Assembly: GCF_027924145.1 (NCBI RefSeq)
Contig: NZ_BRVP01000013.1
Location: 1-64,000 of the forward strand
Origin: Neptunitalea chrysea
Lineage (GTDB): Bacteria; Bacteroidota; Bacteroidia; Flavobacteriales; Flavobacteriaceae
Length of the DNA stretch: 64,000 bases
Direction of reading: 5' to 3'
Below, in pieces: positions 14,193 to 29,798 of this stretch; within the stretch, counting starts at the first letter, position 1; each line of letters begins with the position of its first letter. The notes below the pieces were generated by a model, which was not told the DNA's origin, ran no database searches, and worked only from the letters and a program-made list of their open reading frames with translations. A program made the translations under genes and the position numbers.

Positions 14193-14837
14193 ATGAATTG
14201 TCCTAAGTGTAACCACAGTATTCCTAGCAACGACATTAATATTCAGGCAGATATTGCCAAATGTACCCAATGCGGGTATGTATTTAAACCTTCAGGATTA
14301 GTTACTCAAAGTAAAAATAACTTTAACATACAAGATGTTCCTAACGGAGCATGGTACCGTAAAGAACGCAATAACATAATTTTAGGAGCTAATTTACAAT
14401 CTAAGCAGATATATTTATTCATTGCGTTTTTTAGTGTGTGGTTAGTAGTGTTTGGTACCGGTATTGGGGAAAGCAATGGTGAAACTAATGAATTACCTCC
14501 GTTCTTTTTTCTTCCGTTTGGAGTAGGATTTATCATAATTTCTACCGTAATAGCTCGTGTGTTATTTGGCAAGGTGGAGTTTACACTAGACAAGCGTGGC
14601 GGTAAGGTGTTTACCGGAGTGGGGTCTATTGGGGTTACCCGTACTTTTTTATGGGAGGATATAGATAATATTACCGAGCGCGAAAGCAATTTTAGATCGT
14701 TTGGCAAGCACAATACACAAATAGCCTTAGAGGGTAAAAAACGTATTATGGCAGGTATTGGTGTATCAGATGAGCGCAGGTACTATTTAATGCGTGCGCT
14801 TACCCAGGTAATGAATGAGTACCAACGAGAGTGGTAG
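14193..14837 (+). CDS. zinc-ribbon membrane protein (copy 1)
   Basis: The N-terminus has a four-Cys zinc ribbon (CPKCNHS...CTQCGY, residues 3-28). After a linker come two membrane helices (about 72-90 and 100-125) and a C-terminal domain rich in strands (FTLDKRGGKVFTGVGSIGVTRTFLWEDI, IALEGKKRIMAGIG), reminiscent of bacterial PH-like domains. It ends DERRYYLMRALTQVMNEYQREW. The next gene is a clear tandem paralogue. Function is unknown; a membrane-bound sensor or scaffold is plausible. Confidence 0.7.
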   Translation: MNCPKCNHSIPSNDINIQADIAKCTQCGYVFKPSGLVTQSKNNFNIQDVPNGAWYRKERNNIILGANLQSKQIYLFIAFFSVWLVVFGTGIGESNGETNELPPFFFLPFGVGFIIISTVIARVLFGKVEFTLDKRGGKVFTGVGSIGVTRTFLWEDIDNITERESNFRSFGKHNTQIALEGKKRIMAGIGVSDERRYYLMRALTQVMNEYQREW

Positions 14838-14866: not shown

Positions 14867-15556
14867 ATGAATTGTCCTAACTGCAAAGTAGAAATAGCTC
14901 CTGATAATATTAATATTCAAGTAGATACTGCCAAGTGTTCTTATTGCGGAACGGTTTTTAAAGTATCGGAACAGTTACATGTTAAAAAGAGTGCGTTTGA
15001 TTTAAAAACTACTCCCAACCAAGCCTGGTATTATAAAGAACGGGATGACATGGTACTAGGAGCTAGTTTACGAAATAGACAAATGTATTTTTTTGTACCC
15101 TTTGCAGCCCTTTGGGCGGGGGGAGTTTTAACCGCTTTTACAGTGTTTATTTTTGAAGGAGTTTTTTTGAATACTCCTTTTATTTTGTTGCCTTTGCTAC
15201 CTTTTCTAGTAGCGTCTATATTTATGATAAGTATGGCGGCTTTAATGGTAGCGGGTAAGGTAGAATTTCGCTTAAATAAAAGAGGCGGAACCGTATTTAC
15301 AGGAGTAGGGAATATAGGTATTAAAAGAGAATTTTTGTGGGCAGATGTAGATACCATTACAGAACGATCGAGTACGTTTATTTACCCTAGTCAAGTTGGT
15401 CTCCGAATTGCCTTGGAAGGTAAAAAACGCATTGCCGTGGGTGCCAGACTTTCAGATGAGCGTAGGTTTTACTGCGGGGTATGCAAGAAGCTATGTATAT
15501 GTATAAGAGCAATTGAAACTGCAAAGTCTAATATTAACCATTCCTGGTATGCCTAA
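14867..15556 (+). CDS. zinc-ribbon membrane protein (copy 2), C-terminus frameshifted
   Basis: This tandem paralogue lies 29 bp after copy 1, with the same order: CPNCKVE...CSYCGT ribbon, two membrane helices, and the RGGTVFTGVGNIGIKREFLW domain. After DERRFY the frame diverges from copy 1. A different frame then reads GMQEAMYMYKSN and stops at 15514-15516, which aligns with copy 1 (RALTQVMNEYQREW). Inserting TTAA or TAAT at about 15473 would give FYLMRGMQEAMYMY. So a 4-bp deletion has replaced about 15 residues with a 31-residue unrelated tail. Most of the protein remains intact. Confidence 0.7.
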   Translation: MNCPNCKVEIAPDNINIQVDTAKCSYCGTVFKVSEQLHVKKSAFDLKTTPNQAWYYKERDDMVLGASLRNRQMYFFVPFAALWAGGVLTAFTVFIFEGVFLNTPFILLPLLPFLVASIFMISMAALMVAGKVEFRLNKRGGTVFTGVGNIGIKREFLWADVDTITERSSTFIYPSQVGLRIALEGKKRIAVGARLSDERRFYCGVCKKLCICIRAIETAKSNINHSWYA

Positions 15557-15801: not shown

Positions 15802-17493
15802 ATGAAAAAAATTCTATTTATACTGCTACTTTGCGTTTTGCCTAAAGTATACGCGCAGTCTTATTTTGTACCAACCGATTTGGTGAAAGGAAGTATAGAT
15901 GCCCCACCTAACGGAACAGACTTTAATTCTATGTTATTAACTACATCTCAAGATGCGGATGGGTTTTATGATTTTAAACTAACGTATTATAATAAGGATG
16001 TTAGTTTTAAAATGAAGCCGTTACTTTACAATAGCTTCAAATTAAAATTTAAAGCTGCTCTTAAAACATTAATAGACAGTACAAAAGTGGATGTTGGTGG
16101 TACTCCTACTCCTTTAACATACAAGGCTGCTGATGATAGTATGGTTGATAAAAATGTGTCAGTATTGTTTTATCAATCGGTAACTTATCATAACACCGAA
16201 GACGGAAAATTAGTAGCTGGTACTATGAGCCTTATAAGTAATGAGATACCTGTATTTGTTAAGGATAGCTTTAGTGGTATTAGTAATAATTGCATAGGAA
16301 AATTAAAGGATGTAAAAGTAGGTATTACCTTTAAAAATGGGTATATACAAAAGGTGTTGGTAGAAGGGAAAATAGGTGAGCTTGAGGTAAAATTTAAAAA
16401 TGTATACTCTATAGGTATTAGTTCATCGGCAAATATTAAGAATCTTAGAAGGAATAAGCTATTCTCTAAAAGGTCATATACAGAAAAAGAAATTTTAAGA
16501 ATACAAGCAAATGAAAGATTAAGTGTTAAAGATATACAGTATGATGCAAAAAGAAAACTCTATAATTTAGAGGTATATCTTGGAGATATTATAGATTATT
16601 CAGAAAAAATAGGCTTAAATGCACATGATATTAGTCCAGAACCACAGACCATTCTATTAGATGAGGCAGATACCAGTCAAAGTGAAGTAGAAGTATATAA
16701 AGAAGACAAATCTGAGCTTTTTGAAATTGTAGTCTATACCGATGCTTTAAATGCCTTTGGTTTAGATGATACAGAAAATGGACTTGTACAAGCAGAAATT
16801 AACAAACGTTTTAATCTGAATACCAACCTTAGGGATACAAGAACATTTGGACAATATATGTCACCTCCATTTTTATCATTTCTTTCTAAAGGTATAGGGT
16901 ATGTAACTTTTGTGAATTTGAATGTTCGGTATTCTAAATTTGAAGAAGGTAAAGAGTTTGTATTACTTTCTGAACTTGATGGAAATACATATTACCCACT
17001 TACAGAAATATTCCAAAAACGAAACTTTACGTTTGGTCCCATATTGAATTTGGTGACCATGGAAAATCAGGATCTAAAACTTGATATGCACTTAAATACG
17101 GGGGTTTTGTTTGGAAGAACATTTTATAGAACTGCTGAAGATGCAGAAAATCAGTTTGTAAACAATTTAGAAATTCCTATTGAGTATAAGTTTCAAATAA
17201 CACCCGAGAATGCAGTAAACTTTTGTATAAGTGATAGACTTTCATATTTCAAAAGTTTTAAAGAAGACTTTAATGTTAGTACTATAAAAGGGGGCTCCTT
17301 ATCGGGAGGTGAGTTTATGAACACGATTAATATGGGAGTGAATTTAAATTTATCTTCTACGGGTAAGATGTTTTTTAGATATCAATTTGTACATGCGTTT
17401 GATAATATAAACCAAAACTACCACCAACTGCAATTTGGTTACAGTTTTTATTGGTTGAAACAAAACGGAGTTAAAACACAATCGGGGAGTTAA
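15802..17493 (+). CDS. secreted protein of unknown function
   Basis: The 563-residue protein has a Sec signal peptide (MKKILFILLLCVLPKVYAQ, cleavage near residue 19). The N-terminal half has a beta-rich domain. The C-terminal half (from about residue 300) ends in alternating strands such as NMGVNLNLSSTGKMFFRYQFVHAF and QLQFGYSFYWL, which suggests an outer-membrane barrel or beta-sandwich. I recognise no named family. It is monocistronic and upstream of the fecI gene; there is no evidence it belongs to that locus. Confidence 0.6.
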   Translation: MKKILFILLLCVLPKVYAQSYFVPTDLVKGSIDAPPNGTDFNSMLLTTSQDADGFYDFKLTYYNKDVSFKMKPLLYNSFKLKFKAALKTLIDSTKVDVGGTPTPLTYKAADDSMVDKNVSVLFYQSVTYHNTEDGKLVAGTMSLISNEIPVFVKDSFSGISNNCIGKLKDVKVGITFKNGYIQKVLVEGKIGELEVKFKNVYSIGISSSANIKNLRRNKLFSKRSYTEKEILRIQANERLSVKDIQYDAKRKLYNLEVYLGDIIDYSEKIGLNAHDISPEPQTILLDEADTSQSEVEVYKEDKSELFEIVVYTDALNAFGLDDTENGLVQAEINKRFNLNTNLRDTRTFGQYMSPPFLSFLSKGIGYVTFVNLNVRYSKFEEGKEFVLLSELDGNTYYPLTEIFQKRNFTFGPILNLVTMENQDLKLDMHLNTGVLFGRTFYRTAEDAENQFVNNLEIPIEYKFQITPENAVNFCISDRLSYFKSFKEDFNVSTIKGGSLSGGEFMNTINMGVNLNLSSTGKMFFRYQFVHAFDNINQNYHQLQFGYSFYWLKQNGVKTQSGS

Positions 17494-17607
17494 TTTTATA
17501 GGTAACCGCATGTTAGAGGTGCCTTGCCTCATGTCATTTTTTCTATTTTTAATTAGCTTTCAATCATCAACCTCCCCAACAAATAACCAAAACTTAATTT
17601 ACCAGAA

Positions 17608-17637
17608 TTGCGTTTTCAGCAGATTATCATAATTTTG
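17608..17637 (+). promoter_or_regulatory. Bacteroidota-type promoter of the fecI-like gene
   Basis: TTG at 17608-17610 and TAATTTTG at 17630-17637 are separated by 19 bases, matching the primary sigma consensus of the phylum (TTG...TAnnTTTG). The ATG lies 11 bases after the -7 box, so the leader would be very short. Confidence 0.55.
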
Positions 17638-17648
17638 TTGGCAAATTA

Positions 17649-18206
17649 ATGGCTACAATTTTGGAAGACGCATTATGGGTTACGCAAGTAAAAGAGGGCG
17701 ACTACAAAGCCTTTGAAATACTTTACAATAAGTATTTTGGACGGGTGTATGCCTTTTTGCAATCGCTACAACTTACCGAGCATGCCGACGATGTAATTCA
17801 GGAAACCTTTATTATTGTTTGGGAAAAAAGAGCCACCCTTCAACCCGATAAATCGTTTAACTCTTATCTGTTTACCATTGCTAAAAATCAAGCTTTAAAA
17901 GCGTTAAGAAAAGGCATAAAAGAACGTATAGATGCGGCAGAAGTAGAAGTAGCAGATACCCATGTTTCTGAAAGCAATCTGATTTCTGAAGAGATGGAAC
18001 AGGCCATTCAAAAATCGTTGGAAGAGATGCCCGAGCGTCCGCGTACGGTGTTTGAGATGAAACGCTATCAGGGCTTGAGTACCAAACAAATTGCCGAACT
18101 CCTTAACATTTCTGCCAGTACGGTAGAGAATCACATGAACATGGCGCTCTCCATTTTAAAAAAGAATATGTTGCTGGCGGTGTACATTCTTCCCTTTATT
18201 AAATAG
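17649..18206 (+). CDS. FecI-like ECF sigma factor
   Basis: The 185-residue protein has sigma region 2 (YNKYFGRVYAFLQSL...ADDVIQETFIIVWEKR) and region 4 (LEEMPERPRTVFEMKRYQGLSTKQIAELLNISASTVENHMNMAL). Established knowledge: in Bacteroidota such factors are released from a FecR-like membrane anti-sigma factor when a TonB-dependent SusC-type receptor binds its ligand. The next genes are exactly fecR, susC and susD, so I infer it activates transcription of the downstream locus. Its own promoter matches the housekeeping consensus, which keeps a basal supply. Confidence 0.92.
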   Translation: MATILEDALWVTQVKEGDYKAFEILYNKYFGRVYAFLQSLQLTEHADDVIQETFIIVWEKRATLQPDKSFNSYLFTIAKNQALKALRKGIKERIDAAEVEVADTHVSESNLISEEMEQAIQKSLEEMPERPRTVFEMKRYQGLSTKQIAELLNISASTVENHMNMALSILKKNMLLAVYILPFIK

Positions 18207-18329
18207 GTATTACAGGCTATATGTTAAGCAATTTATTTTTTCTTAACGTTTTGTTAATCTATTCTAATTAGGTGATACCCCATGTTTCTGGATATAACGG
18301 ATGTAATAACATAGTTATAGCTAGAGAAC

Positions 18330-19310
18330 GTGAAAGAGCAATTAAATACACTTTGGAATAAATACGCCAACAGAACAGCTACCCGTAAAGAGCTGGAAAC
18401 TTTTTTAGAGTTGTTAGAAAACAACCAAGCGTCTGAAGAAGTAACTCAATGGATGGAGCAAAAATGGAATACTGCTACGATGCCTGCCGAGGTTACTCAG
18501 GTACGCAACAAGGTATGGAACAATATAACCACTACAATACAAACTAAGGCAACACCTAAAAAATCGAAGGTATTCCGTTTACATACATGGTACAAAGTAG
18601 CTGCTGCAGTAGTATTACTTATTGGGGTAGGCAGCATGGCATATTTTGGCACCAATATTTACAATGCACTAAGTTATGATTCGGTTTCGGTAGCTGCTAA
18701 TGAAAATCCACAACAATTTACCTTACCCGATGGTTCAGAGGTATGGTTAAACTCGGGGACTACACTGTACTACGATAAGTCGTTTCAGGAAAACCGTTTT
18801 TCTAAACTAGACGGAGAAGCCTTTTTTAAAGTCACTAAAAATAAGGAAAGACCTTTTATTATTAAAACAGGAGATATAAGCACTCGTGTAGTAGGTACTC
18901 AGTTTAATGTAAAAGAAGACAAGAACCATATAAAGGTAACCGTTACCGAAGGTGAGGTACGCGTATACAACCAAAAAGATACTTTACAGTTAACCCCTAA
19001 CAAACAAGGTGTGTATGCCTTAAACAGTCAACAACTTACCGAGCAACCTGTAAATGCCTTTTTATATGGGTTGTGGCAGAAGGAGGAAATAGAACTAAAC
19101 AGTGTAACCATGAAAGATTTTGCCGTGGCTTTAGAAACAGTATTTCATGTAAAAACACAATTTGCAGACGAAAAAGCCAAAGAGGTTTTAATGTCGTTTA
19201 GTTTCTCTAAAACCGAATCAATAGAAAATATTATAGCGCGCATAAATATCATAAACGAAGTTCAACTAACCCAAAAGCAACACATGATTACTATAAAGAA
19301 AGTAGAATAA
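18330..19310 (+). CDS. FecR-type anti-sigma factor
   Basis: Translation probably starts at GTG 18330 (MKEQLNTLWNKYANRTATRK). The N-terminal 80 residues are the cytoplasmic sigma-binding segment. Residues 87-107 form the single membrane helix. The periplasmic FecR domain (LPDGSEVWLNSGTTLYYD..., about 125-225) follows, and a C-terminal DUF4974-like signal-receiving domain (about 250-322). It is expected to hold the FecI-like sigma inactive and relay the signal from the STN domain of the SusC receptor encoded next. The gap to fecI is 123 bp with no terminator. Confidence 0.92.
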   Translation: MKEQLNTLWNKYANRTATRKELETFLELLENNQASEEVTQWMEQKWNTATMPAEVTQVRNKVWNNITTTIQTKATPKKSKVFRLHTWYKVAAAVVLLIGVGSMAYFGTNIYNALSYDSVSVAANENPQQFTLPDGSEVWLNSGTTLYYDKSFQENRFSKLDGEAFFKVTKNKERPFIIKTGDISTRVVGTQFNVKEDKNHIKVTVTEGEVRVYNQKDTLQLTPNKQGVYALNSQQLTEQPVNAFLYGLWQKEEIELNSVTMKDFAVALETVFHVKTQFADEKAKEVLMSFSFSKTESIENIIARINIINEVQLTQKQHMITIKKVE

Positions 19311-19321
19311 TTAAAAGGAAA

Positions 19322-19343
19322 AGAGCCTGCGCCAACAGGCTCT
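19322..19343 (+). promoter_or_regulatory. hairpin between fecR and susC
   Basis: AGAGCCTG at 19322-19329 pairs perfectly with CAGGCTCT at 19336-19343 around a 6-base loop. No U-run follows, so it is more likely an RNA-stability or processing element, or a weak attenuator, than a full terminator. Confidence 0.4.
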
Positions 19344-19391
19344 CTAAAAGCGTCGAAGTGAAAACAAAAACATCAACACTTAAATTGTATT

Positions 19392-22300
19392 ATGAAATTT
19401 AAAATTCAATGGATTAGAACATTCATGCTCCTGATTTGTTGCTTGCTCTTAAAACCAGTGCACGCAAAAGGACAGGAGGAACTTGAACAAACAAAAATAA
19501 GCATAAATCTTACAGATGCTACGTTGGTTCAAATTTTTTCAAAAATAAAAGAGGCTACAAACGCTACCTTCTCTTATGGTGAGTTTGTACTTAAAAACAA
19601 AACGACCTATAATGCTGTATATAATAACAGCAGTGTACAATACATATTATCGGACCTTAGTAAAAAAGCCAAGTTCAACTTTGTAATTACCGGTAGTCAG
19701 GTAGTAATTACAGGCCGAACCACTTCGCAAACTAACTATAGAAATAAAGTTGGGCAACGTTTGGTAGTAACTGGTAATGTAACCGATGCAGACGGTGTTC
19801 CTATGCCGGGTGTTGCCGTGCAAGAAAAAAATACAACCAACGGAATAAGTACCGGATTTGATGGTGAGTACTCAATTACTGTAGCCAATGAAAACGCCGT
19901 ATTAATATTCTCGTACATGGGGTATACTACACAAGAAATAGTAGTAGGTAATCAGGTTACTGTAAATGTAGTGTTAACCGAAGAAGCAGGTGCTTTAGAA
20001 GAAGTAGTTGTGGTTGGGTACGGAACAGAGAAGAAAGCGAATCTTACCGGAGCGGTAACTTCTATAGATGGTGACGAAATTCAGCGTAACATTGGGCCAA
20101 ATACCAGTCAGTTATTACAAGGTATTTCGCCTAACTTAAATGTAACCTTAGACAATGGAGGCATTAACGAAAAGGCTAATATTGCAATTAGAGGAATGGG
20201 TTCTATTAACGGGAGTTCTCCTCTGGTATTAATAGATGGGGTTCAGGGAGATATCAATCGTATCAATCCAAGAGATATAGCTTCTGTTTCTGTATTAAAA
20301 GATGCTTCTTCGGCAGCTATTTATGGAGCAAGAGCTTCTTTTGGGGTTGTTTTAGTAACTACTAAAAAAGCAGAGGCAGGGAAATTGCAAGTAAGCTATA
20401 ATGCCAACTTTGGTTGGAGTAGTCCTACCATTAGAACCGATAATTTTATTACCGATGGATTAGAGTGGGCTAAGTTGAGTGACAAGCTTAGTTTATTAGA
20501 AAACTCGAATACATATTTGGGGTATACAGATGAGGATTATGCGTATTTAGAAGCAAGAAAAGCGGATCCTTCATTACCTAATGTATTGATTAAAACGGTA
20601 GATGGTGTAGAACGCTACATACATTACGGGAATACCGATTGGTGGAATACCTTGTTTAGTGATGCACAGGCTTCTCAAGAACACAACATTAGTTTAACCG
20701 GAGGTACCGATGTAATTAGCGTATACCTTTCGGGTAGGTTTTATACCAGAGAAGGTATTTATAAGGTAAGTGAAAACGGAATAGATACTTATACCATTAG
20801 AAACCGAATTGAAGCGCAACCATTATCTTGGTTAAAAATAAGCAATGCAACCAATGTTTACAAGAGCGATTATACTGAGCCGGCTACCAATACACGTAAT
20901 GTAAGCGGGTCTAGCAACAGTGAAAACTGGCGTAAGTATACCTACCATGCAGCTCCGTTGTTTTTACCGCATAATCCTGATGGAAGTATTATGATTAACT
21001 CGGCATATACAAGTAACCGTGATATTGCCGATGGTACTTTTGCCGATTTATTATATGGAAAGAGTAGAGATAACGAAACCGATTTTGAGGTATTCAATAC
21101 TACTTCGTTTGTACTTACCCCAATCAAAGGATTAGAAATTAAGGGAGATTATAGTTTTAGAAGAAGACAACAACAAGAGCAGGTACGTATTATTTCTACA
21201 CCTCATACCAACCAGCCTAATGGGGAAGGTGTTTCATATTATAAAGAGAGTACTCAACTTTATAAAGAGCTAGAGCGTAACTATTTGTATCAGGCGGTAA
21301 ACGCGTATGCAGATTATACTACAAAATTATTTAAAAACCATCAGTTTACTGCATTGGTTGGGTATAATCAGGAGTGGCGATGGTTTAAAAGAAATATTGC
21401 GAGTAGAAACGGAAACTTATCAGAGAGTTTAAACTCATTTAATTTGGCAACAGGCGATAACATTACCCTTACCTCAACAGAGGAAGAATGGGCATTACGT
21501 GCCGGTTTTTACCGTTTAAAGTATAGCATTGCCGATAAGTATTTGGTAGAGTTTAACGGGCGTTACGATTTGTCATCTCGTTTTCCGGAAGATAACCGAG
21601 CAGGGTTTTTTCCATCGGCTTCGGCAGCGTGGAGAGTAAGTCAGGAAAATTTCTTTACTCCTTTAAAACCCTATGTAAGCTCGTTAAAACTAAGAGCGTC
21701 TTATGGTGCTTTAGGAAACCAAAATGTGGGCGCATACGATTACTACTCAACCATGTCTGTAGAGCAGTCTAGTTATGTGGTAGAAGATGCATTATCTCAA
21801 TATTTATCTTCACCAGCTCCGGTATCGTCTAACTACAGTTGGGAAACTTCTCAAACTTTAGATTTAGGGGTAGATGTTAGTTTTCTTAACAATAGACTTA
21901 CTGTTAATTATGACTGGTTTCAGCGCGACGTGAAGGATATGCTTACTGAAGGGAAACAATTACCATCGGTATTTGGCGCAGATGAGCCTGTAGAAAATGC
22001 AGCCGATTTAAGAACGAAAGGTTTTGAACTTTCGGTAAACTGGAGAGATGAGTTTCAGTTAGGGAAAAAGAAATTCAAATACCATATTGGGGTAAATCTA
22101 GGAGATAGCAGAACGTTTATTACGAAGTTCGACAATCCTAACGGAGATATTCAGCAATACTATGTAGGGCAAGAAATAGGTGAAGTTTGGGGATATACAG
22201 TAGAAGGATTCTTCCAGTCTGATGATGAATATCTAAGTCATGCCGATCAGGTATTGGTGAATGAGCGTATTGAAAATAACTACCTGATTAACCATCCTGT

Positions 22301-22931
22301 TGCAGGAGATATTAAGTTTAAAGATGTAAATGGCGATGGGGTAATTTCTCCGGGTGATTTAACCCTTGAAAATCATGGTGATTTAAAGAAGATTGGGAAT
22401 ACTTCGCCACGATATAACTACGGTATTAATGTTGGGGGTGAATATGCCGGTTTCGACTTTAATGTATTTGCACAAGGGATTATGAACAGAGACTGGAATC
22501 CGGGTACGGATAACGGTTATTTCTGGGGACCTTTTAGCCGTCAGTACTTAAACTTTTATTCTAAAAGCATAGAAGGAATGGCTTGGACACCTGATAATCC
22601 GGATGCTTATTTTCCACGTTTAGCGGTATACGCAGAGAGAGGTGGGCCTTATGAAGGTGCACAGCTTGGTGTGAACTCCGATAAGTACTTGCAAAATGCT
22701 GCATACTTAAGAATTAAGAACATTACTGTGGGATATACCGTACCAGAGAGTATTACCTCAAAATTAAAGATTGATAATATCAGATTTTATGTAACTGGGA
22801 TGAACCTGTTTACGTTCTCTCCGATATACAAACATAATCCTGACCATACGGTGGATCCTGAGCAGTTGGGTAACGGTAACGATTATCCGTTCTCTAAAAC
22901 GTACTCCTTTGGTCTTGATATAAAATTTTAA
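19392..22931 (+). CDS. SusC/RagA-family TonB-dependent receptor with STN domain
   Basis: The 1179-residue outer-membrane protein starts with a signal peptide, then a secretin/TonB short N-terminal (STN) signalling domain (about 35-110). A carboxypeptidase D-like domain (about 125-205) follows, and then the plug (LVLIDGVQGDINRINPRDIASVSVLKDASSAAIYG). The beta-barrel ends SKTYSFGLDIKF. The STN domain is what transducing receptors use to contact FecR, fitting the upstream pair. Established knowledge: SusC forms a lidded import complex with the SusD lipoprotein encoded 12 bp downstream. From the enzymes nearby I infer import of glycerophosphodiesters or a related phospholipid fragment rather than a glycan. 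Confidence 0.93.
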   Translation: MKFKIQWIRTFMLLICCLLLKPVHAKGQEELEQTKISINLTDATLVQIFSKIKEATNATFSYGEFVLKNKTTYNAVYNNSSVQYILSDLSKKAKFNFVITGSQVVITGRTTSQTNYRNKVGQRLVVTGNVTDADGVPMPGVAVQEKNTTNGISTGFDGEYSITVANENAVLIFSYMGYTTQEIVVGNQVTVNVVLTEEAGALEEVVVVGYGTEKKANLTGAVTSIDGDEIQRNIGPNTSQLLQGISPNLNVTLDNGGINEKANIAIRGMGSINGSSPLVLIDGVQGDINRINPRDIASVSVLKDASSAAIYGARASFGVVLVTTKKAEAGKLQVSYNANFGWSSPTIRTDNFITDGLEWAKLSDKLSLLENSNTYLGYTDEDYAYLEARKADPSLPNVLIKTVDGVERYIHYGNTDWWNTLFSDAQASQEHNISLTGGTDVISVYLSGRFYTREGIYKVSENGIDTYTIRNRIEAQPLSWLKISNATNVYKSDYTEPATNTRNVSGSSNSENWRKYTYHAAPLFLPHNPDGSIMINSAYTSNRDIADGTFADLLYGKSRDNETDFEVFNTTSFVLTPIKGLEIKGDYSFRRRQQQEQVRIISTPHTNQPNGEGVSYYKESTQLYKELERNYLYQAVNAYADYTTKLFKNHQFTALVGYNQEWRWFKRNIASRNGNLSESLNSFNLATGDNITLTSTEEEWALRAGFYRLKYSIADKYLVEFNGRYDLSSRFPEDNRAGFFPSASAAWRVSQENFFTPLKPYVSSLKLRASYGALGNQNVGAYDYYSTMSVEQSSYVVEDALSQYLSSPAPVSSNYSWETSQTLDLGVDVSFLNNRLTVNYDWFQRDVKDMLTEGKQLPSVFGADEPVENAADLRTKGFELSVNWRDEFQLGKKKFKYHIGVNLGDSRTFITKFDNPNGDIQQYYVGQEIGEVWGYTVEGFFQSDDEYLSHADQVLVNERIENNYLINHPVAGDIKFKDVNGDGVISPGDLTLENHGDLKKIGNTSPRYNYGINVGGEYAGFDFNVFAQGIMNRDWNPGTDNGYFWGPFSRQYLNFYSKSIEGMAWTPDNPDAYFPRLAVYAERGGPYEGAQLGVNSDKYLQNAAYLRIKNITVGYTVPESITSKLKIDNIRFYVTGMNLFTFSPIYKHNPDHTVDPEQLGNGNDYPFSKTYSFGLDIKF

Positions 22932-22943
22932 ATCCTCCTGAAA

Positions 22944-24680
22944 ATGAAAAAAGTATTTATAAGTACCCTGATAATTTTGTTGTTAACCACGGCGTGTAAC
23001 GATGAATTTTTAGATCGTACCCCACTTTCTGAGATTGTGCCGGAGAACTCGTTTCAAACGGCTGAAGACCTGGAGTTGTATACCAATAGTTTTTACAATG
23101 TGCTTCCGGGAAGAGAGGGTATTATAGAACAAGACTTATTGTCTGATAATGTGTTGTATAATGGTGTGCCACAAGAACAAACAGGAGAGCGTTTGGTACC
23201 TAGTGAAGCAGGTAGCAGCGGATGGGATTGGGACGACCTGAGAACCATTAATATCTTTTTTAAATATTATGATCAGTGCGATGATGAAGCTGCTAAAACC
23301 GAGTATAGTGGTGTGGCCTATTTCTTCAGAGCCTATTTCTATTTTGATAAATTAAAACGTTTTGGGGGTGTGCCATGGTACGATACCGTAATTGGTAGTG
23401 GGGACGATGAGTTACTATATGCTGCAAGAGATACCCGTGAGTATGTAACGGAACGTATTATTGAAGATTTAGATAATGCGATAGCCAATTTGAGAGACGA
23501 TCAGACATCGGATAGAGTAACTAAATGGACAGCCCTTGCGCTAAAATCGAGAGTGTGTTTGTTTGAAGGTACTTTTAGAAAATACCACAACGGAACCGAT
23601 GCGGATGCCTTATTGCAATTAGCAGCAGATGCTGCTGGAACCTTAATGACCGAAGGACCGTATAGCCTGTATACCACAGGAGATGCTTCGGTAGATTACA
23701 GAGATTTATTTGCTTCTGCTGAAACGAAAGATGAAGAGGTGTTGTTGACCAGAAAGTATAGTGAAGAGGTAAACGTAATGAATAATATCAACTATTATTT
23801 GTTATCACCAACGCAGGAAGATGTAGGACTTACCAAGTCGATTGTAGATAGCTACTTAAACGAAGATGGTACCGCTTTTACAGATAATACAGACTATGCA
23901 ACTATGGAGTATTATGATGAAATGCAAAATAGAGATCCTCGTTTAAGCCAAACCATTCGTACACCGGGGTATATGCGTATAGAGGGTACTTCGGAAGAGT
24001 TAACCGATTTTTCGGTAGCCATTAGTGGGTATCAAATAGTTAAATACGTATCCGATGAGAGTCAGGATGGTGACAGTGCCGGGTATCAAGATCTTCCTAT
24101 TATTAGGTATGCAGAAGTCTTATTAAACTATGCAGAAGCAAAGGCCGAGTTAGGTTCGCTAACACAAAGCGATGTTGATGCGTCTATAAATTTAATCCGT
24201 AGTCGTGCCGGGATGCCTGGTTTAAGTATGTCAGACGCCAATGCAATACCCGATGCGGTATTAGCAGCACGTTACAGTAACGTAAGCGGAAGCAACACTG
24301 GTGTGATTTTAGAAATACGCAGAGAACGTAGAATAGAATTGGTGTTGGAAGGATTTAGATATGACGATTTAATGCGTTGGAAAAACGGAAAACTGTTAGA
24401 GGAATATTTTAAAGGAATGTATTTTCAGGGGTATGGAACCTACGATTTAAATAACGATGGGACTGCCGATGTTGAGGTGTATACCGGTACGGCTACCGGA
24501 GGTACAGACCAAACGGTAGAAATAGGGGGCGTACTTTCGTTTTCTAATAGTACCTACGGAAACTTAATTCCTTTTGAAGACCGCACCAAATCGTTTGATG
24601 AAGACAGAGATTATTTGTATCCAATACCCTCTGGAGATATTCAATTAAATCCGAATTTGGAACAAAATCCGAACTGGTAA
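22944..24680 (+). CDS. SusD/RagB-family surface lipoprotein
   Basis: The 578-residue protein has a lipoprotein signal ending LLTTAC (Cys18), followed by NDEFLDRTPLSEIVPENSFQ, the canonical SusD N-terminus. The TPR-like helices and the closing LYPIPSGDIQLNPNLEQNPNW (the SusD C-terminal motif) are intact. It forms the lid over the SusC barrel and captures substrate at the surface. The stop codon overlaps the start of the next gene by one base (TAATG), so susC, susD and the GDPD genes are clearly one operon. Confidence 0.93.
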   Translation: MKKVFISTLIILLLTTACNDEFLDRTPLSEIVPENSFQTAEDLELYTNSFYNVLPGREGIIEQDLLSDNVLYNGVPQEQTGERLVPSEAGSSGWDWDDLRTINIFFKYYDQCDDEAAKTEYSGVAYFFRAYFYFDKLKRFGGVPWYDTVIGSGDDELLYAARDTREYVTERIIEDLDNAIANLRDDQTSDRVTKWTALALKSRVCLFEGTFRKYHNGTDADALLQLAADAAGTLMTEGPYSLYTTGDASVDYRDLFASAETKDEEVLLTRKYSEEVNVMNNINYYLLSPTQEDVGLTKSIVDSYLNEDGTAFTDNTDYATMEYYDEMQNRDPRLSQTIRTPGYMRIEGTSEELTDFSVAISGYQIVKYVSDESQDGDSAGYQDLPIIRYAEVLLNYAEAKAELGSLTQSDVDASINLIRSRAGMPGLSMSDANAIPDAVLAARYSNVSGSNTGVILEIRRERRIELVLEGFRYDDLMRWKNGKLLEEYFKGMYFQGYGTYDLNNDGTADVEVYTGTATGGTDQTVEIGGVLSFSNSTYGNLIPFEDRTKSFDEDRDYLYPIPSGDIQLNPNLEQNPNW

Positions 24681-25825
24681 TGAAAACCATTGGAATAAAA
24701 TTAGGTTTACTGTTTGTGTTATGTACAGGAAGTTGGTTAACGCTGACTTCCTGTTCTAAAGATGGTGATGCTGATAGTGGATCGCAATCGGTACAACCCT
24801 CTTTTGAGGCAAGTGTAGATACCATTTTTGAAGGCGAACAAATGAGTTTTGTAAATACAATAAACAGTACCGCAGATGTAGCATATTATTGGGACTTTGG
24901 TGATGGGGCTACCTCAATAGCTGAAAACCCTAGTCATACTTTTGATGCCGTGGGAAATTATGTGGTAACCCTTACCACTACGGTACAAGGTACCGAGACT
25001 TCGGTAGCTAAAGAGGTAGGTGTGTACAGACATGAGTTGGAAAACCGACCGGGATTGGTAACGTATATGGAAAGCCTTAATGGTAACATTATGGTGTGTG
25101 CCCACCGCATGTATCACAACGTACTGCCCGAAAATTCTATGTCGGCTTTAAATGCTTCTATAGAGGCTGGTATTGGCATGGTTGAAATAGACATACGCCA
25201 AACTAAAGACGGTGAGTTGGTTTTACTACACGATAGTACCTTGGATGATACCACCACCGGAAGCGGTGACCTTACCGATTATTTGCTAGAAGAGTTAGGT
25301 CAGTTTTATTTGTACAAAGCAGATGGTAGTTTGTCTAATGAGCATATTCCAACCTTTAAAGAAATTTTGGAGGTAGCCCGTGGAAACATCTATATAGATA
25401 TTGATGTGAAAATGGAAAACTATCTTAAAATCTATCAACTGGTAAAACAGTATGGAATGTTATCGCAGTGTATGTTTACTACCGATGAGCTTTCGGTATG
25501 CCAAAGTTTACAAAACGCCGATAGCAAAACAATTTTATTTCCAATAGTAAGAGAAGAAACCGATTATGCTGCGTATACCTTGACAGGGTTAGACATACGT
25601 ATATTTCAATTGAATTCTGATATGTCGCAAAACCAAACAGTGGTAGATGATATTTTGGCAAATGGTGATTTCTTTTTTGCCAACATATACATTAACAGCA
25701 ACGTTACACCGCAAAGTAACAACTACGTGCAGGTGAATAATTTTATCAATCTGGGAGGAAGTATTATTCAAACAGATTATCCGGTAACCTTAAAATCGTA
25801 CTTACAAAATTTAAACTTGAATTAG
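24680..25825 (+). CDS. PKD-domain glycerophosphodiester phosphodiesterase lipoprotein
   Basis: The 381-residue product has a lipobox with Cys25 and a PKD Ig-like domain (about 40-115, YYWDFGDGATS). A GDPD TIM-barrel follows (about 138-380). GDPD motifs are AHR (His142, Arg143), PENS (150-153), EID (Glu169, Asp171) and LLHDST with catalytic His184. The usual HRG is HRM here. The enzyme should hydrolyse glycerophosphodiesters to glycerol-3-phosphate and an alcohol, probably at the cell surface because SusCD-locus lipoproteins with PKD spacers generally face outward. It overlaps susD by one base. Confidence 0.88.
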   Translation: MKTIGIKLGLLFVLCTGSWLTLTSCSKDGDADSGSQSVQPSFEASVDTIFEGEQMSFVNTINSTADVAYYWDFGDGATSIAENPSHTFDAVGNYVVTLTTTVQGTETSVAKEVGVYRHELENRPGLVTYMESLNGNIMVCAHRMYHNVLPENSMSALNASIEAGIGMVEIDIRQTKDGELVLLHDSTLDDTTTGSGDLTDYLLEELGQFYLYKADGSLSNEHIPTFKEILEVARGNIYIDIDVKMENYLKIYQLVKQYGMLSQCMFTTDELSVCQSLQNADSKTILFPIVREETDYAAYTLTGLDIRIFQLNSDMSQNQTVVDDILANGDFFFANIYINSNVTPQSNNYVQVNNFINLGGSIIQTDYPVTLKSYLQNLNLN

Positions 25826-27307
25826 ATGAAATCTTTTTATAGAACTTTTTATATACTGGCTTCGTTCATGGTACTGTCGTGCGGTGACGATGATGAAAGC
25901 CTTAATACAAAACCGGTAGCAGCCTTTTCGTATAACATTGGAGGGGTAGCCGAAACCGGAGAGACCATAACCTTTACCGACTTGTCTTATGACTTAGATG
26001 GTGAAGTAGTAGAATGGGCATGGGATTTTGGGAATGGAGATACCTCTGTAGAGGCCAGTACTACCTATGCGTATAATACTGAAGGTGATTATACCATAAC
26101 CTTAACGGTAACCGATAACAATGGAGAACAAAATGCTACGGTATTCTCAAAAGACGTATCGGTATTAGTGCCGTCCAATGCAACTACAGAACCAACAGTG
26201 GTTTGGACGTATGAGGCACCTTATTATTCTACCAATTCCTCGGTAGCGGTTTCAGACGCTGGGATTGTTTATTTTGGTACCGATGGAAAGTCGAGCGACT
26301 TAACTCGTGGTAATTATAATATGTTTGCCGTGCAAAACGGAAACTTCTTATTTGGGACCTTAACCGATGAGGTAGTACGTGCTTCGGCAGCTATTGCAGC
26401 AGATGGTACAGCGTATATTGGTGATTACAACGGTGAGTTTGTAGCCTTTAATACCGATGGTTCTCAAAAGTGGCATGTAGATTTAGGGGATCGTATTAAG
26501 TATTCATCGCCAGCAATTGCTCCTGACGGAACAATATATATTGGTATGGAAGATGATGATGCTTTATTAGCTATAAACCCAGATACAGGAAGTATTAATT
26601 GGTCGTTTGCGGTAGGTGACGATATTAGAGCTACTCCGGTAGTAGCTGCAGACGGAACTATTTTTGTAGCTTCTTCAGACGGGTATTTCTATGCGGTGAA
26701 TCCTGATGGTACGCAAAAATGGAGTGTAGCCTATGGTAATTATACCGCCGGAGCACCAGCCATTAGTGAATCTATGGGAGCGGTTTGTTTAACTGGTAAA
26801 ACTTCTGATAATACAGGTCACTTAATGGCATTTGATATGGCAACGGGTACAGTGTACTGGGATAACGGTAGCAGACCCGATGCTAAAATGGAGCAGGGAG
26901 GTCCTACACTTTCGGCAGATGGTTCAACCATTTATGCTGGTGGAGAAGATAATCAATTGGTGGCTTACAATGTAGACGGTACAGTAAAATGGACATTTGA
27001 AGCTACAGGTAGAGTGTTGTCGGCTCCGGCTATAGATAACTTAGGACAAATTTATTTTGGTGATGATAGTGGTTATTTTTATGTGTTAGATGAAGAGGGT
27101 GAAGTAGCTTGGAAAACAACCAAACTAAATGAAGATATCCGTTCTTCTCCAGTAATTGATGCCAATGGTATTATTTACATTCTTACACGTAACAATACCG
27201 ATAAAAAAGGTACCGTATACGCGTTAAGTACAAATGCATCTGGTGCAGCCGATGGTGAGTGGCCTATGTTGTCGCAAAATACGCGTCACACAGGAAGTAG
27301 CAATTAA
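25826..27307 (+). CDS. PKD plus PQQ-like beta-propeller lipoprotein
   Basis: It starts immediately after the preceding stop codon. The 493-residue protein has a lipobox (LSCG, Cys19) and a PKD domain (about 30-112, WAWDFGNGDTS). A seven- or eight-bladed PQQ-like propeller follows, seen as repeats of the type AADGTIFVASSDGYFYAVNPDGTQKW. No catalytic residues are evident; such propellers usually bind ligands or partners. Its position between two GDPDs suggests a surface binding subunit of the same uptake complex, perhaps recognising head groups or assembling the enzymes. That role is inference. Confidence 0.82.
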   Translation: MKSFYRTFYILASFMVLSCGDDDESLNTKPVAAFSYNIGGVAETGETITFTDLSYDLDGEVVEWAWDFGNGDTSVEASTTYAYNTEGDYTITLTVTDNNGEQNATVFSKDVSVLVPSNATTEPTVVWTYEAPYYSTNSSVAVSDAGIVYFGTDGKSSDLTRGNYNMFAVQNGNFLFGTLTDEVVRASAAIAADGTAYIGDYNGEFVAFNTDGSQKWHVDLGDRIKYSSPAIAPDGTIYIGMEDDDALLAINPDTGSINWSFAVGDDIRATPVVAADGTIFVASSDGYFYAVNPDGTQKWSVAYGNYTAGAPAISESMGAVCLTGKTSDNTGHLMAFDMATGTVYWDNGSRPDAKMEQGGPTLSADGSTIYAGGEDNQLVAYNVDGTVKWTFEATGRVLSAPAIDNLGQIYFGDDSGYFYVLDEEGEVAWKTTKLNEDIRSSPVIDANGIIYILTRNNTDKKGTVYALSTNASGAADGEWPMLSQNTRHTGSSN

Positions 27308-27328
27308 TCAACTTAAAAGTAAAATACA

Positions 27329-28273
27329 ATGAAAAAGTATGGTAGTGTATTGTTTGCCTTATGGGTATTCCTCTTAACAGCTTGTACGCATATAAATACA
27401 GTACAGGCGCAAGAGATACCTGCAGACAGTACCAATACAATTGCCTATTTACGAAACGTACTGTTAGATGAAAATAGCAATCAGGTAATGGTGATTGCCC
27501 ATAGAGGCGATTGGCGTAATGCTCCTGAAAATTCTATTATGGCTATAGAAAACTGTATTGCTATGGGAGTAGATATGGTAGAGATTGATGTACGTAAAAC
27601 CAAAGATGGTAAGTTGGTATTAATGCACGATAGTACCGTAGACCGCACCACAAACGGAAAAGGAAAGGTTTCTAGCTTAACGTTAAATAGCTTAAAAAAG
27701 CTTCACCTTAAAAACGGTCAAGGTCGCGTTACACACCATACCATACCTACACTAGAGGAAGCCTTACAAGCAGCTAAAGGAAAGATATTGGTAAACTTAG
27801 ATAAGTGTTACGGATATTTTGACGAAGTATATGCTGTTATGGAGAAAACAGGAACAGTAAATCAGGTAGTGCTTAAGGCGTATAATAAACCGTATAGTGA
27901 GGTACGAAAAGATATAGGAGATAAGCTAGATAAAATTTTGTTTATGCCTATTGTTAACCTAGACAAGCAAGCCGATGCGTGGCAAATTATAACCGATTAC
28001 CAAAAAGCTAAAACACCCGTAGCTTTTGAGATTGTGTTTGCTACAGAAAACTCGGATATCTTAAACAGGTTTAAACAAATACAACAAGGAGGCAGCAGAG
28101 TTTGGGTAAACAGTTTATGGGCTAGTTTAAATGCTGGTTATGAAGATGACATGGCAGTTAACAACCCAGATGGTATTTATGGGTGGCTTCTTAAAAAAGG
28201 AGTAACCATGCTACAAACCGATCGCCCACAATTACTGCTTGCTTATTTAAGAAAAAAACAATTACACCGTTAA
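27329..28273 (+). CDS. glycerophosphodiester phosphodiesterase
   Basis: The 314-residue enzyme has a lipobox-like signal (LLTAC, Cys19) and a single GDPD domain. Catalytic motifs are complete: HRG with His58/Arg59, PENS, EID (Glu85, Asp87) and LMHDST with His100. Unlike the first GDPD it has no PKD spacer, so it may act in the periplasm on imported substrate. It is the last gene of the SusCD operon and is followed by a strong terminator. The two GDPDs share the VEID(V/I)RKTKDG..VL.HDST core but are otherwise diverged, suggesting different locations or substrates. Confidence 0.9.
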   Translation: MKKYGSVLFALWVFLLTACTHINTVQAQEIPADSTNTIAYLRNVLLDENSNQVMVIAHRGDWRNAPENSIMAIENCIAMGVDMVEIDVRKTKDGKLVLMHDSTVDRTTNGKGKVSSLTLNSLKKLHLKNGQGRVTHHTIPTLEEALQAAKGKILVNLDKCYGYFDEVYAVMEKTGTVNQVVLKAYNKPYSEVRKDIGDKLDKILFMPIVNLDKQADAWQIITDYQKAKTPVAFEIVFATENSDILNRFKQIQQGGSRVWVNSLWASLNAGYEDDMAVNNPDGIYGWLLKKGVTMLQTDRPQLLLAYLRKKQLHR

Positions 28274-28312
28274 TAGGAAAGTTGTTTTTAAGTGTTTTTA
28301 GTTAATATGGCC

Positions 28313-28339
28313 AACAGGCTACCCATTGGGTAGCCTGTT
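28313..28339 (+). terminator. rho-independent terminator of the SusCD/GDPD operon
   Basis: A perfect 12-bp stem (AACAGGCTACCC / GGGTAGCCTGTT) with a 3-base loop is followed by TTTTG. It separates the operon from the phospholipase gene. Confidence 0.85.
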
Positions 28340-28519
28340 TTGTTCAGGCTTAATTGAGTTGAAAGTTGTATCGAGAAAAGGAGTTTTCTCTGTAAAGGGA
28401 TGTGCACTCAGCCGCTGCCTTTGGGGCTCGATACATTTTATCTACAGGATTTCAAATTTTAAAACTCCTTTAGGGTTTTATTGTCATAATTTTAGTGCAA
28501 TACAGTTTACTTTTGCTAT

Positions 28520-29353
28520 ATGAAAACAGCTATCTCATTATTTATAGCATTGCTAGGCGGAATATGCTTTGTAATGGCTCAGAACAAACCAAAGGAGGTT
28601 CCTAAAATTACACGCTACAATTATAAACAATACATTGAAGAAGCACCCAGATTTACCATTTACGGAGATAATTATTTTGTGTCGGGTACACAAATGAATC
28701 ATAGTATATCGGAAGAAACCAGTGATGCCCGCTTTGAGATAGGGTTTAAAGAGCGTTTGGTAGATAAACCACTGCCGTGGGATATTTATTTGTTTTTAGC
28801 ATACCGACAAAAAGCATTTTGGGATATCTATAAAGAATCGTTTCCGTTTAGGGCTCTTAATTACAACCCGAGTTTAGGACTTGGAAAAGTAATTTTTGAT
28901 GAGGAAGATAAGCTTAAAGGGGCTTTTTGGTTTCAGGTTGAACATGAGTCGAATGGTGAGGCCGACTCCATTTCAAGAAGTTGGAATCGTTTTTCATTAT
29001 CGTATTTTTTGCCGGTTAGTGAGCATTTTTTGTATACAGTAAAGGCATGGTTACCCGTAGGGTCAATGTCTGATAATTCGGATATTACAGAGTATTTGGG
29101 GTACGGACAAGTAGATATGGCGTACCGCCCCAATAGTCGCTGGATTTTTGAGGCTTCTGCCAGAAAGGGTGTAGAAGGATGGAAAGGGAGTTTACAGTTG
29201 GGAGTAAATTTCCGAATTACAAAAACAGGAAATGAATTTGTGTATCTTCAATTTTTTCAGGGATACGGTCAAGATCTGATTAATTATAATAAAGAGCTTA
29301 CCTATCTGCGGTTAGGTTTTAGTATTAAGGATATGAGCTTTAATTTTTATTAG
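28520..29353 (+). CDS. pldA: outer-membrane phospholipase A1 (OmpPLA family)
   Basis: The 277-residue protein has a signal peptide (cleavage near Ala20) and the OmpPLA barrel signatures YRQKAFWDIY and FRALNYNPSLGLG. The catalytic block is EHESNGEADSISRSWNR, with His142, Ser144 and Asn156, in the same spacing as the E. coli triad. It should deacylate phospholipids, yielding lysophospholipids and then glycerophosphodiesters. A TACTTTTG box at 28508-28515 just before the ATG may be its own promoter, and it follows the operon terminator. Its position directly after two GDPDs suggests it supplies their substrate. In E. coli the enzyme is a dormant outer-membrane quality-control lipase; here it may be catabolic. 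Confidence 0.9.
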   Translation: MKTAISLFIALLGGICFVMAQNKPKEVPKITRYNYKQYIEEAPRFTIYGDNYFVSGTQMNHSISEETSDARFEIGFKERLVDKPLPWDIYLFLAYRQKAFWDIYKESFPFRALNYNPSLGLGKVIFDEEDKLKGAFWFQVEHESNGEADSISRSWNRFSLSYFLPVSEHFLYTVKAWLPVGSMSDNSDITEYLGYGQVDMAYRPNSRWIFEASARKGVEGWKGSLQLGVNFRITKTGNEFVYLQFFQGYGQDLINYNKELTYLRLGFSIKDMSFNFY

Positions 29354-29456: not shown

Positions 29457-29798
29457 TTGAATCCGTTAGAACAATTTTATGCAAAGCAACCCGAACCGCA
29501 TCGGAGTGTTTTTTTAGTGTTACGATCGTATTTTTTAGCCAAACCGAATATGACGGAGGCGTATAAATACGGAGCGCCATTTTTCTATTGTAACGGAAAA
29601 CGTTGTTTTTATTTTTGGAACGAAAAAAAAACCAATCAGCTTTATATAGGGGTCATAGATGGTATGCAGTTAGATCATCCTGCATTAGAGCAAGGCGATA
29701 GAAAACGGATGAAAATATTCCGTATCAATCCGTTTAAAGATATTGATATGGAACTGTTAGATGAGGTGGTAACACTGGTGCTACAATTATATGTATAG
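29457..29798 (+). CDS. DUF1801 domain protein
   Basis: The 113-residue protein starts at TTG 29457 (MNPLEQFYAKQPEPHRSVF). It matches the DUF1801 / YdhG-like fold: an N-terminal helix, TEAYKYGAPFFYCNGKRCFYFWNEKK and YIGVIDG, ending in a helix that follows FRINPFKDID. The family has no firm biochemical function. It appears monocistronic with its own promoter. Confidence in the family is good; the start codon is supported by promoter spacing. Confidence 0.78.
   Translation: MNPLEQFYAKQPEPHRSVFLVLRSYFLAKPNMTEAYKYGAPFFYCNGKRCFYFWNEKKTNQLYIGVIDGMQLDHPALEQGDRKRMKIFRINPFKDIDMELLDEVVTLVLQLYV

Follow-up and report, generated by a model that had tools for sequence, protein, structure and literature searches.

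A SusCD locus of Neptunitalea chrysea with two glycerophosphodiester phosphodiesterases: a probable organophosphorus counterpart of polysaccharide-utilisation loci

What does a SusCD importer carry when the enzymes encoded next to it cleave phosphodiesters? The question is raised by a locus in the 64,000-nucleotide stretch of Neptunitalea chrysea DNA analysed here (contig NZ_BRVP01000013.1, positions 1 to 64,000; hereafter the window), in which genes for a sigma factor, an anti-sigma factor, SusC and SusD are followed by genes for two glycerophosphodiester phosphodiesterases (GDPD1 and GDPD2) with a propeller lipoprotein between them. Judging from the genes, the locus is probably the organophosphorus equivalent of a polysaccharide-utilisation locus, with glycerophosphodiester bonds as its speciality, and the phospholipase A1 (PLA1) gene next to it is probably independent. 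The locus would most likely import glycerol-phosphate compounds, since it encodes two phosphodiesterases and its importer falls in a branch that lies beside phosphate-cleaving enzymes.

Nine genes in the interval 15802–29353 were read and scanned with the Pfam and NCBIfam models. The order, all on the + strand, is FecI, FecR, SusC, SusD, GDPD1 (PKD-GDPD), a PKD/PQQ-propeller lipoprotein, GDPD2 (GDPD-DUF4996), a hairpin and PLA1. The FecI-type extracytoplasmic-function (ECF) sigma factor (17649–18206; TIGR02985, 141.9 bits, cut-off 126.4) is followed by the FecR-type anti-sigma factor (18330–19310; PF04773, PF16344), the SusC/RagA TonB-dependent transporter (19392–22931; TIGR04056, 849 bits, cut-off 368) and the SusD-like lid lipoprotein (22944–24680; PF07980, 177 bits, cut-off 23.1). 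Then come GDPD1, a lipoprotein with a PKD and a GDPD domain (24680–25825; PF18911, and PF03009 at 80 bits, cut-off 23.6), the lipoprotein combining PKD with a PQQ-type beta-propeller (25826–27307; PF13360, PF13570, PF00801), and GDPD2 (27329–28273; PF03009, 106.4 bits at the same cut-off of 23.6, and PF16387, 119 bits), which matches the solved structure 3i10 at 303 bits. The genes and domains are all present at the coordinates given by an earlier reading of this DNA, made from the sequence only, and the domain scans agree with it; of the one-base overlaps that it described, the one between SusD and GDPD1 stands, whereas GDPD1 and the PQQ gene merely abut. Both GDPDs have, as seen by eye, the H-R, E-x-D and H-D residues, which we take to be the catalytic and metal-binding motif of the family. 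Two of the four GDPD matches in the whole genome are in this locus. No glycoside hydrolase or other carbohydrate-active enzyme (CAZyme) model exceeds its cut-off among the nine proteins, as had been stated earlier; the one match of this kind, to PF25292, is a sub-cut-off one.

The same arrangement is found in other species. One genome per species (84,980 species) was scanned with this SusD, and the best 80 of the 136 relatives found were retained; L082 was dropped, no SusD open reading frame being called in it, and 79 loci were usable. In three of them, from Tamlana nanhaiensis (L006), a Marinoscillum metagenome-assembled genome (MAG; L007) and Aestuariivivens sediminis (L008), the order FecI/FecR–SusC–SusD–GDPD1–PQQ–GDPD2 recurs, and SusC and SusD are 62–70% identical to those of the window. 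L008 differs in having FecI on the opposite strand, two PQQ genes and an additional PhoD-family gene. The extra genes scanned from these three loci include no glycoside hydrolase or lyase. The order for which the sequence-only reading had suggested a search, fecI-fecR-susCD-GDPD-PKD/PQQ-GDPD-pldA, is thus conserved up to its last member: pldA, the gene of PLA1, is in none of the three flanks. Past GDPD2 all three have a major facilitator superfamily (MFS) sequence, whose best NCBIfam matches are organophosphate antiporter models (TIGR00881, 169–251 bits; glpT, 136–226 bits), all under the curated cut-offs; in L006 it is split across two reading frames, the larger of which was scanned.

For each of the 79 loci we took the co-directional run of genes around SusD and applied six class hidden Markov models (HMMs), built from clusters of the same loci whose representatives had been typed with Pfam. 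A phosphoesterase-like gene is present in the run in 68 of the 79 loci (62 without PHP domains). By class, Metallophos is found in 39 loci, EEP in 16, type I phosphodiesterase in 14, GDPD in eight, PHP in seven and PF04185 in four; some of the 11 loci without a match lie at contig ends. Pfam was also applied to the first downstream gene in 64 of 76 loci, the three syntenic ones being set aside and 12 having no co-directional downstream gene. Among the 25 of 33 families listed, Metallophos accounts for 26 loci, EEP for 12, BACON for 12, PHP for three, Phosphodiest for two and PF04185 for one, and there is a single alpha-fucosidase. The six HMMs match none of the 14 ordinary SusCD runs of the N. 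chrysea genome, from which two loci of that genome, C25 (with GDPD) and C9 (with PhoA genes), were kept apart; for 34 hand-picked neighbours of the other SusCD runs in the genome, Pfam gives mainly glycoside hydrolases among the 25 of 74 families listed.

A later search, in which a profile built from four SusDs was run on 397 genomes of the family, matched 13 genomes, N. chrysea included. Besides the window it yielded 14 matches, two of them in loci read earlier (L106 and L107) and 12 in newly fetched ones. In 11 of these 12 a phosphoesterase-like gene is within the next two genes of SusD, the exception being L173, which has one AP_endonuc_2 and one BACON gene. As for the two loci read earlier, a Metallophos-PQQ gene stands at +1 of SusD in L107, and in L106 a PHP gene is third and an NAGPA phosphodiester glycosidase fourth after SusD. 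The PQQ-propeller type seen in the window is fused to Metallophos not only in L107 but also in L012 and L080.

In the SusD tree an 82-row clade is split from the 16 other SusDs of the N. chrysea genome with support 99, and the window and L006–L008 form one group inside it with support 100; the joins among the outgroup SusDs are unsure because many of their branches are long. Arg330 (R330) is present in 94 of 94 clade rows and in none of the 16 others, while R459 and R460 are each present in 94 of 94 and in one of the 16. The branch comprises Sphingobacteriaceae, Prevotellaceae, Flavobacteriaceae, other Bacteroidota and one Gemmatimonadota MAG. The predicted structure of this SusD has the SusD fold (mean pLDDT 79.3), its best Foldseek match being 3qnk, the structure of BF3747 (E 9.2e-21). 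By its place in the tree, the SusD of the window is assigned to a phosphoesterase-linked clade. The synteny, the difference between the clade and the ordinary runs, and the later set of loci together support the claim of the sequence-only reading that this SusCD locus serves a phosphodiester cargo and not an ordinary glycan.

Several observations weigh against this reading. In GDPD1 the sequence HDSTLDDTTTG (25229–25261) has D in place of the R of HDxTxDRTT, whereas three relatives have DRTT; the activity of GDPD1 is therefore not certain and may differ from that of the relatives. Moreover, GDPD-family enzymes act on other phosphodiesters too. The loci of the census are related to each other, were collected by similarity to this SusD and gave rise to the HMMs, and the 12 later loci include some near the first set (the SusD of L163 is 74% identical to that of L009). 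The control is modest: in three of the 14 runs no co-directional gene lies downstream, and in one, by eye, there is only a transposase-like frame. The six HMM classes omit PhoA and PhoD, so that C9 scores zero in spite of its PhoA genes. GH89/GH3 genes, with EEP adjoining SusD, are found in nine Prevotellaceae loci of the clade (L013 and L014, typed with Pfam; L015, L016, L018, L019, L020, L023 and L032, assigned by clustering), and for these a phosphoglycan cargo is possible. Finally, the transporter of the L007 locus has no match in the N. chrysea genome in a search run without a positive control, and the best glpT match there is 24 bits; we judge GlpT to be absent from this genome or too diverged.

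How would such a locus work? In Bacteroidota a lipobox trailed by acidic residues suggests surface export. GDPD1 (SC followed by SKDGD) and the PQQ protein (SC followed by GDDDE) have lipoboxes of this kind, also present in the three relatives, and both lipoproteins are probably at the cell surface, the PQQ protein as a surface binding protein. GDPD2 is probably periplasmic, as suggested by the absence of a surface lipobox signal in the window and of any cysteine in the first 60 residues of its L007 counterpart; in L006 and L008 it is lipoprotein-like with some acidic residues further on, and its placement there is less sure.

Control by FecI and FecR, proposed earlier from the sequence, agrees with the presence of both genes and with the predicted fold of the SusC N-terminus. 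The SusC proteins with FecR upstream have a median length of 1189 aa (n = 19, 1132–1206) and those without it 1085.5 aa (n = 52, 1053–1184), the two ranges overlapping. The extra N-terminal, STN-like domain of the SusC in the window (19464–19757, + strand; mean pLDDT of the model 85.7) is predicted to have the signalling fold of PupA, PupB and FpvA, the TM scores with the PupA signalling domain 2a02 being 0.66/0.77. The Foldseek matches to PupA, FpvA and PupB are weak (E 0.011–0.053, none at E ≤ 0.001), the match of rank 1 is the anti-sigma factor 4m0n, and secretin N0 domains match too. For this N-terminus no PDB sequence match is found at a useful E, nor a Pfam STN match at E ≤ 0.001. Between fecR and susC, a hairpin at 19320–19345, not assigned to a strand (z −2.6, four of 200 shuffles equally good), may split the locus into two transcription units; a sigma-70 promoter scan is uninformative (29 sites vs 36.2 expected).

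In the scheme that we propose, a substrate occupying SusCD would bring the signalling domain of SusC into contact with FecR, FecI would be released, and the operon would be switched on. GDPD1 and the propeller lipoprotein would capture and trim the substrate at the surface, SusCD would import the trimmed form, and GDPD2 would split it in the periplasm into glycerol phosphate and an alcohol. The glycerol phosphate would probably be dephosphorylated in the periplasm, since the genome has no clear GlpT-family importer; glycerol would then enter via GlpF–GlpK–GlpD, and phosphate would be gained too. The N. chrysea genome does have a DeoR/GlpD/GlpK/GlpF set, 54–64% identical to the counterparts in L172 (GlpK, 740 bits). 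In L172 (G305:C24) itself, DeoR, SusC and SusD are followed 370 bases on by GDPD, and on the opposite strand, tail to tail, are genes for a GDSL hydrolase, a Phosphodiest-family protein, MIP, FGGY and DAO/DAO_C, the latter three being named GlpF, GlpK and GlpD here; this looks like a self-contained glycerophosphodiester-to-glycerol cluster. Elsewhere in the branch, L107 (8816–13273) and L174 have the Metallophos-PQQ fusion (typed with Pfam in L107) with TIGR03364 and PhnX-like genes (above the cut-offs in L107) next to SusCD, which suggests phosphonate diesters as the cargo. The cargo of the branch would thus comprise phosphodiesters and phosphonates, and the product here, we infer, is likely to be glycerol phosphate.

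The design resembles that of polysaccharide-utilisation loci in its ECF sigma/anti-sigma control, SusC, SusD, surface lipoproteins and periplasmic enzymes, but the enzymes are phosphodiesterases, and no CAZyme model scores above its cut-off. In systems of a GlpQ-type GDPD with GlpT, the GDPD yields glycerol phosphate. A GlpT/UhpC-like gene is likewise present in the three syntenic loci, whereas the TonB-dependent SusCD step with the SusD lid sets the locus apart, as does the lack of a clear GlpT in the N. chrysea genome. RagAB, an oligopeptide transporter (PMC7782687), is also a SusCD complex with a non-glycan cargo; that cargo is peptide, and the SusD model of the window is closer to 3qnk than to RagB.

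The closest published parallel is provided by the phosphate utilisation system (PUS) loci with PusCD of Flavobacterium johnsoniae and relatives, where SusCD lies beside phosphodiesterases or phosphatases and not CAZymes, the proposed cargo includes phosphodiesters, e.g. lipid head groups and nucleic acids, and induction occurs on phosphate depletion (PMC8115612). The enzymes listed for PUSI/II are of the metallophosphoesterase, PI-PLC-like and PhoA types, PusD is called polyphyletic, with six clades, the entry for PusC2 includes pf16344 (the C-terminal family of FecR), and InterPro numbers are given for one orphan lipoprotein (PMC8115612). The locus here likewise has SusCD beside phosphoesterases. 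It differs in its GDPD pair and its FecI/FecR genes, neither of which appears in the parts of the PUS description considered here, although the listing of PusC2 with pf16344 means that a signalling-type SusC may occur there as well. Low-phosphate induction is reported for PUS. The InterPro numbers of the PUS lipoprotein are, we presume, of propeller type. We therefore describe the present locus as an organophosphorus SusCD locus of the GDPD type and regard it as a variant of the PUS systems published for Flavobacterium. In the titles and abstract openings retrieved for SusD with glycerophosphodiester phosphodiesterase no such locus is named, and one paper retrieved for SusC with GDPD has, in the part available, a GDPD gene near a starch-type polysaccharide-utilisation locus.

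The N. chrysea genome has two further loci with related features. C25:25911–33283 (L108:912–8284) shows the FecI-FecR-SusC-SusD-GDPD arrangement a second time, but its SusD is a different one; its GDPD has 285 aa and a DUF4996 match under the cut-off. C9:98392–108770 (L109:393–10771) consists of SusC-SusD, two alkaline-phosphatase (PhoA)-family genes, one of them with a weak GDPD_2 match (24.4 bits, cut-off 27), and an opposite-strand metallophosphoesterase. It resembles PUSII, whose PhoA1 is listed with pf00245 and pf13653 (PMC8115612).

Two kinds of cargo are conceivable, head groups derived from lipids and a polyol-phosphate polymer. The second option is a sharper form of the preferred explanation and compatible with it: a polymer or oligomer of the teichoic-acid type would be trimmed outside, imported as oligomers and cut inside to glycerol phosphate. 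SusCD complexes carry oligomers (PMC7782687), and a surface GDPD with a surface propeller suits the trimming of a polymer. The relatives provide markers as well. L044, L053 and L084 join GDPD to a ribitol/arabitol-type MFS transporter (in L044, TIGR00897 at 564 bits, over the cut-off), two FGGY kinases and a histidine-phosphatase-like gene. In the SusCD loci of two Bacteroidales MAGs (L039:1735–6181 and L070:11727–15214) a glycerol-1-phosphate-dehydrogenase-like gene is beside a GlpT/UhpC-like transporter, which hints at sn-glycerol-1-phosphate, the matches being below the cut-offs (NF002022, 186 and 175 bits, cut-off 413; glpT, 308 and 370 bits, cut-off 633). However, all these markers are in relatives and not in the locus of the window, GDPDs are not polymer-specific, and no other teichoic-acid-degrading enzyme is recognised in the locus. 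A polymeric cargo is a tentative refinement, and in this specific form a rather doubtful one. A literature search joining teichoic acid, SusD and polysaccharide utilization found nothing.

An ordinary glycan locus, in which the GDPDs would strip glycerophosphate decorations off a glycan, seems unlikely. Glycans are the usual cargo of SusCD, and the clade includes NAGPA (L106), an alpha-fucosidase (L034) and the GH89/GH3 genes of the nine Prevotellaceae loci. The PQQ protein has a near-cut-off match to PF25292, the lambda-carrageenase propeller domain (25.1 bits, cut-off 26.8), but its general propeller matches are far stronger. No glycoside hydrolase or lyase model is above its cut-off here, nor is such an enzyme seen among the extra genes scanned from the syntenic loci, whereas the sampled neighbours of the other SusCD runs in the same genome do carry glycoside hydrolases.

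The remaining alternative depends on the status of PLA1 (28520–29353, + strand; OMPLA-type, PF02253, 149 bits). Its His142, Ser144 and Asn156, counted on the precursor, are present as described earlier; presumably they fit the OMPLA numbering and are the catalytic residues. The terminator placed ahead of PLA1 by the sequence-only reading corresponds to a strong terminator-like hairpin 3' of GDPD2 (~28309–28340, + strand): the 51-nt stretch folds at −24.2 kcal/mol (z −4.3, none of 200 shuffles equally good), although a generic terminator scan does not list it. PLA1 is absent from the flanks of the three syntenic loci, that is, from 2.1, 6.3 and 3.8 kb past GDPD2 in L006, L007 and L008, respectively. 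In the one genome of the same genus (G001), PLA1 is 82% identical and lies beside a relative of the next gene of the window (29457–29798), while this SusD has no match there at E ≤ 1e-100. Because of the hairpin, the syntenic flanks and this congener, we rejected PLA1 as a member of the locus, contrary to the sequence-only reading; it is probably an independent gene outside the SusCD-GDPD system. PLA1 matches are found in 10 of the 99 genomes searched, N. chrysea included; of the nine relatives in other genomes, the neighbourhoods of five were read (G001, G002, G055, G015, G054), and in these there is no match to the SusD or GDPDs of the window, though in G002 a SusC-like frame is 4.7 kb away.

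A link of the locus to ethanolamine was considered and rejected too. Ethanolamine ammonia-lyase EutB is encoded in the N. chrysea genome (C1:262180–263448, 716 bits) next to a frame that we take to be EutC-like, and is found in four of the 99 genomes, including N. chrysea and G001. In one search it was present in three of 12 genomes, G001 and those of L028 and L030, and it is in none of the three genomes carrying the syntenic locus. Since EutB occurs in the congener without the locus and is missing from the syntenic genomes, we see no link and judge it to be a trait of the genus.

A single dedicated phospholipid system, in which PLA1 deacylates outer-membrane phospholipids and feeds head-group diesters to SusCD and the GDPDs, is accordingly quite improbable: the adjacency of PLA1 with its catalytic residues kept, the uncommon phospholipid-related set of the genus (PLA1 and EutB), the GDSL-family gene beside SusCD-GDPD in L172 and EutB in the two further SusD-clade genomes speak for it, but the hairpin, the congener with PLA1 and EutB and no match to this SusD, the flanks of the syntenic loci and the neighbourhoods of the PLA1 relatives speak against it, and head-group diesters are small for SusCD, for which a minimum cargo size is suggested (PMC7782687).

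Upstream of the locus, the gene at 15802–17493 matches no Pfam or NCBIfam family at E ≤ 0.001. The adjacent genes 14193–14837 and 14867–15556 resemble, by eye, tandem paralogues with an N-terminal zinc-ribbon-like motif.

The preferred reading, an organophosphorus SusCD locus of the GDPD type, extends the idea of such systems from the Flavobacterium PUS loci to the SusD branch described above, whose SusD adjoins several unrelated phosphoesterase families: Metallophos, EEP, type I phosphodiesterase, GDPD and PF04185. SusD genes that by default are called starch- or sugar-binding can be re-annotated by the rule that it provides, and R330, R459, R460, K213 and H215 of SusD are candidate phosphate-recognition residues. 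Whether a SusCD can import oligomers of phosphodiesters also becomes a testable question. A bolder version, which we offer with considerable reserve, is that of a widespread SusCD branch for polyol-phosphodiesters, with the sub-branch of the window importing glycerol-phosphate oligomers, either of the teichoic-acid type or derived from phosphatidylglycerol head groups. If true, the locus would serve the utilisation of teichoic acid or polyglycerol phosphate, and relatives would do the same for ribitol-phosphate and sn-glycerol-1-phosphate.

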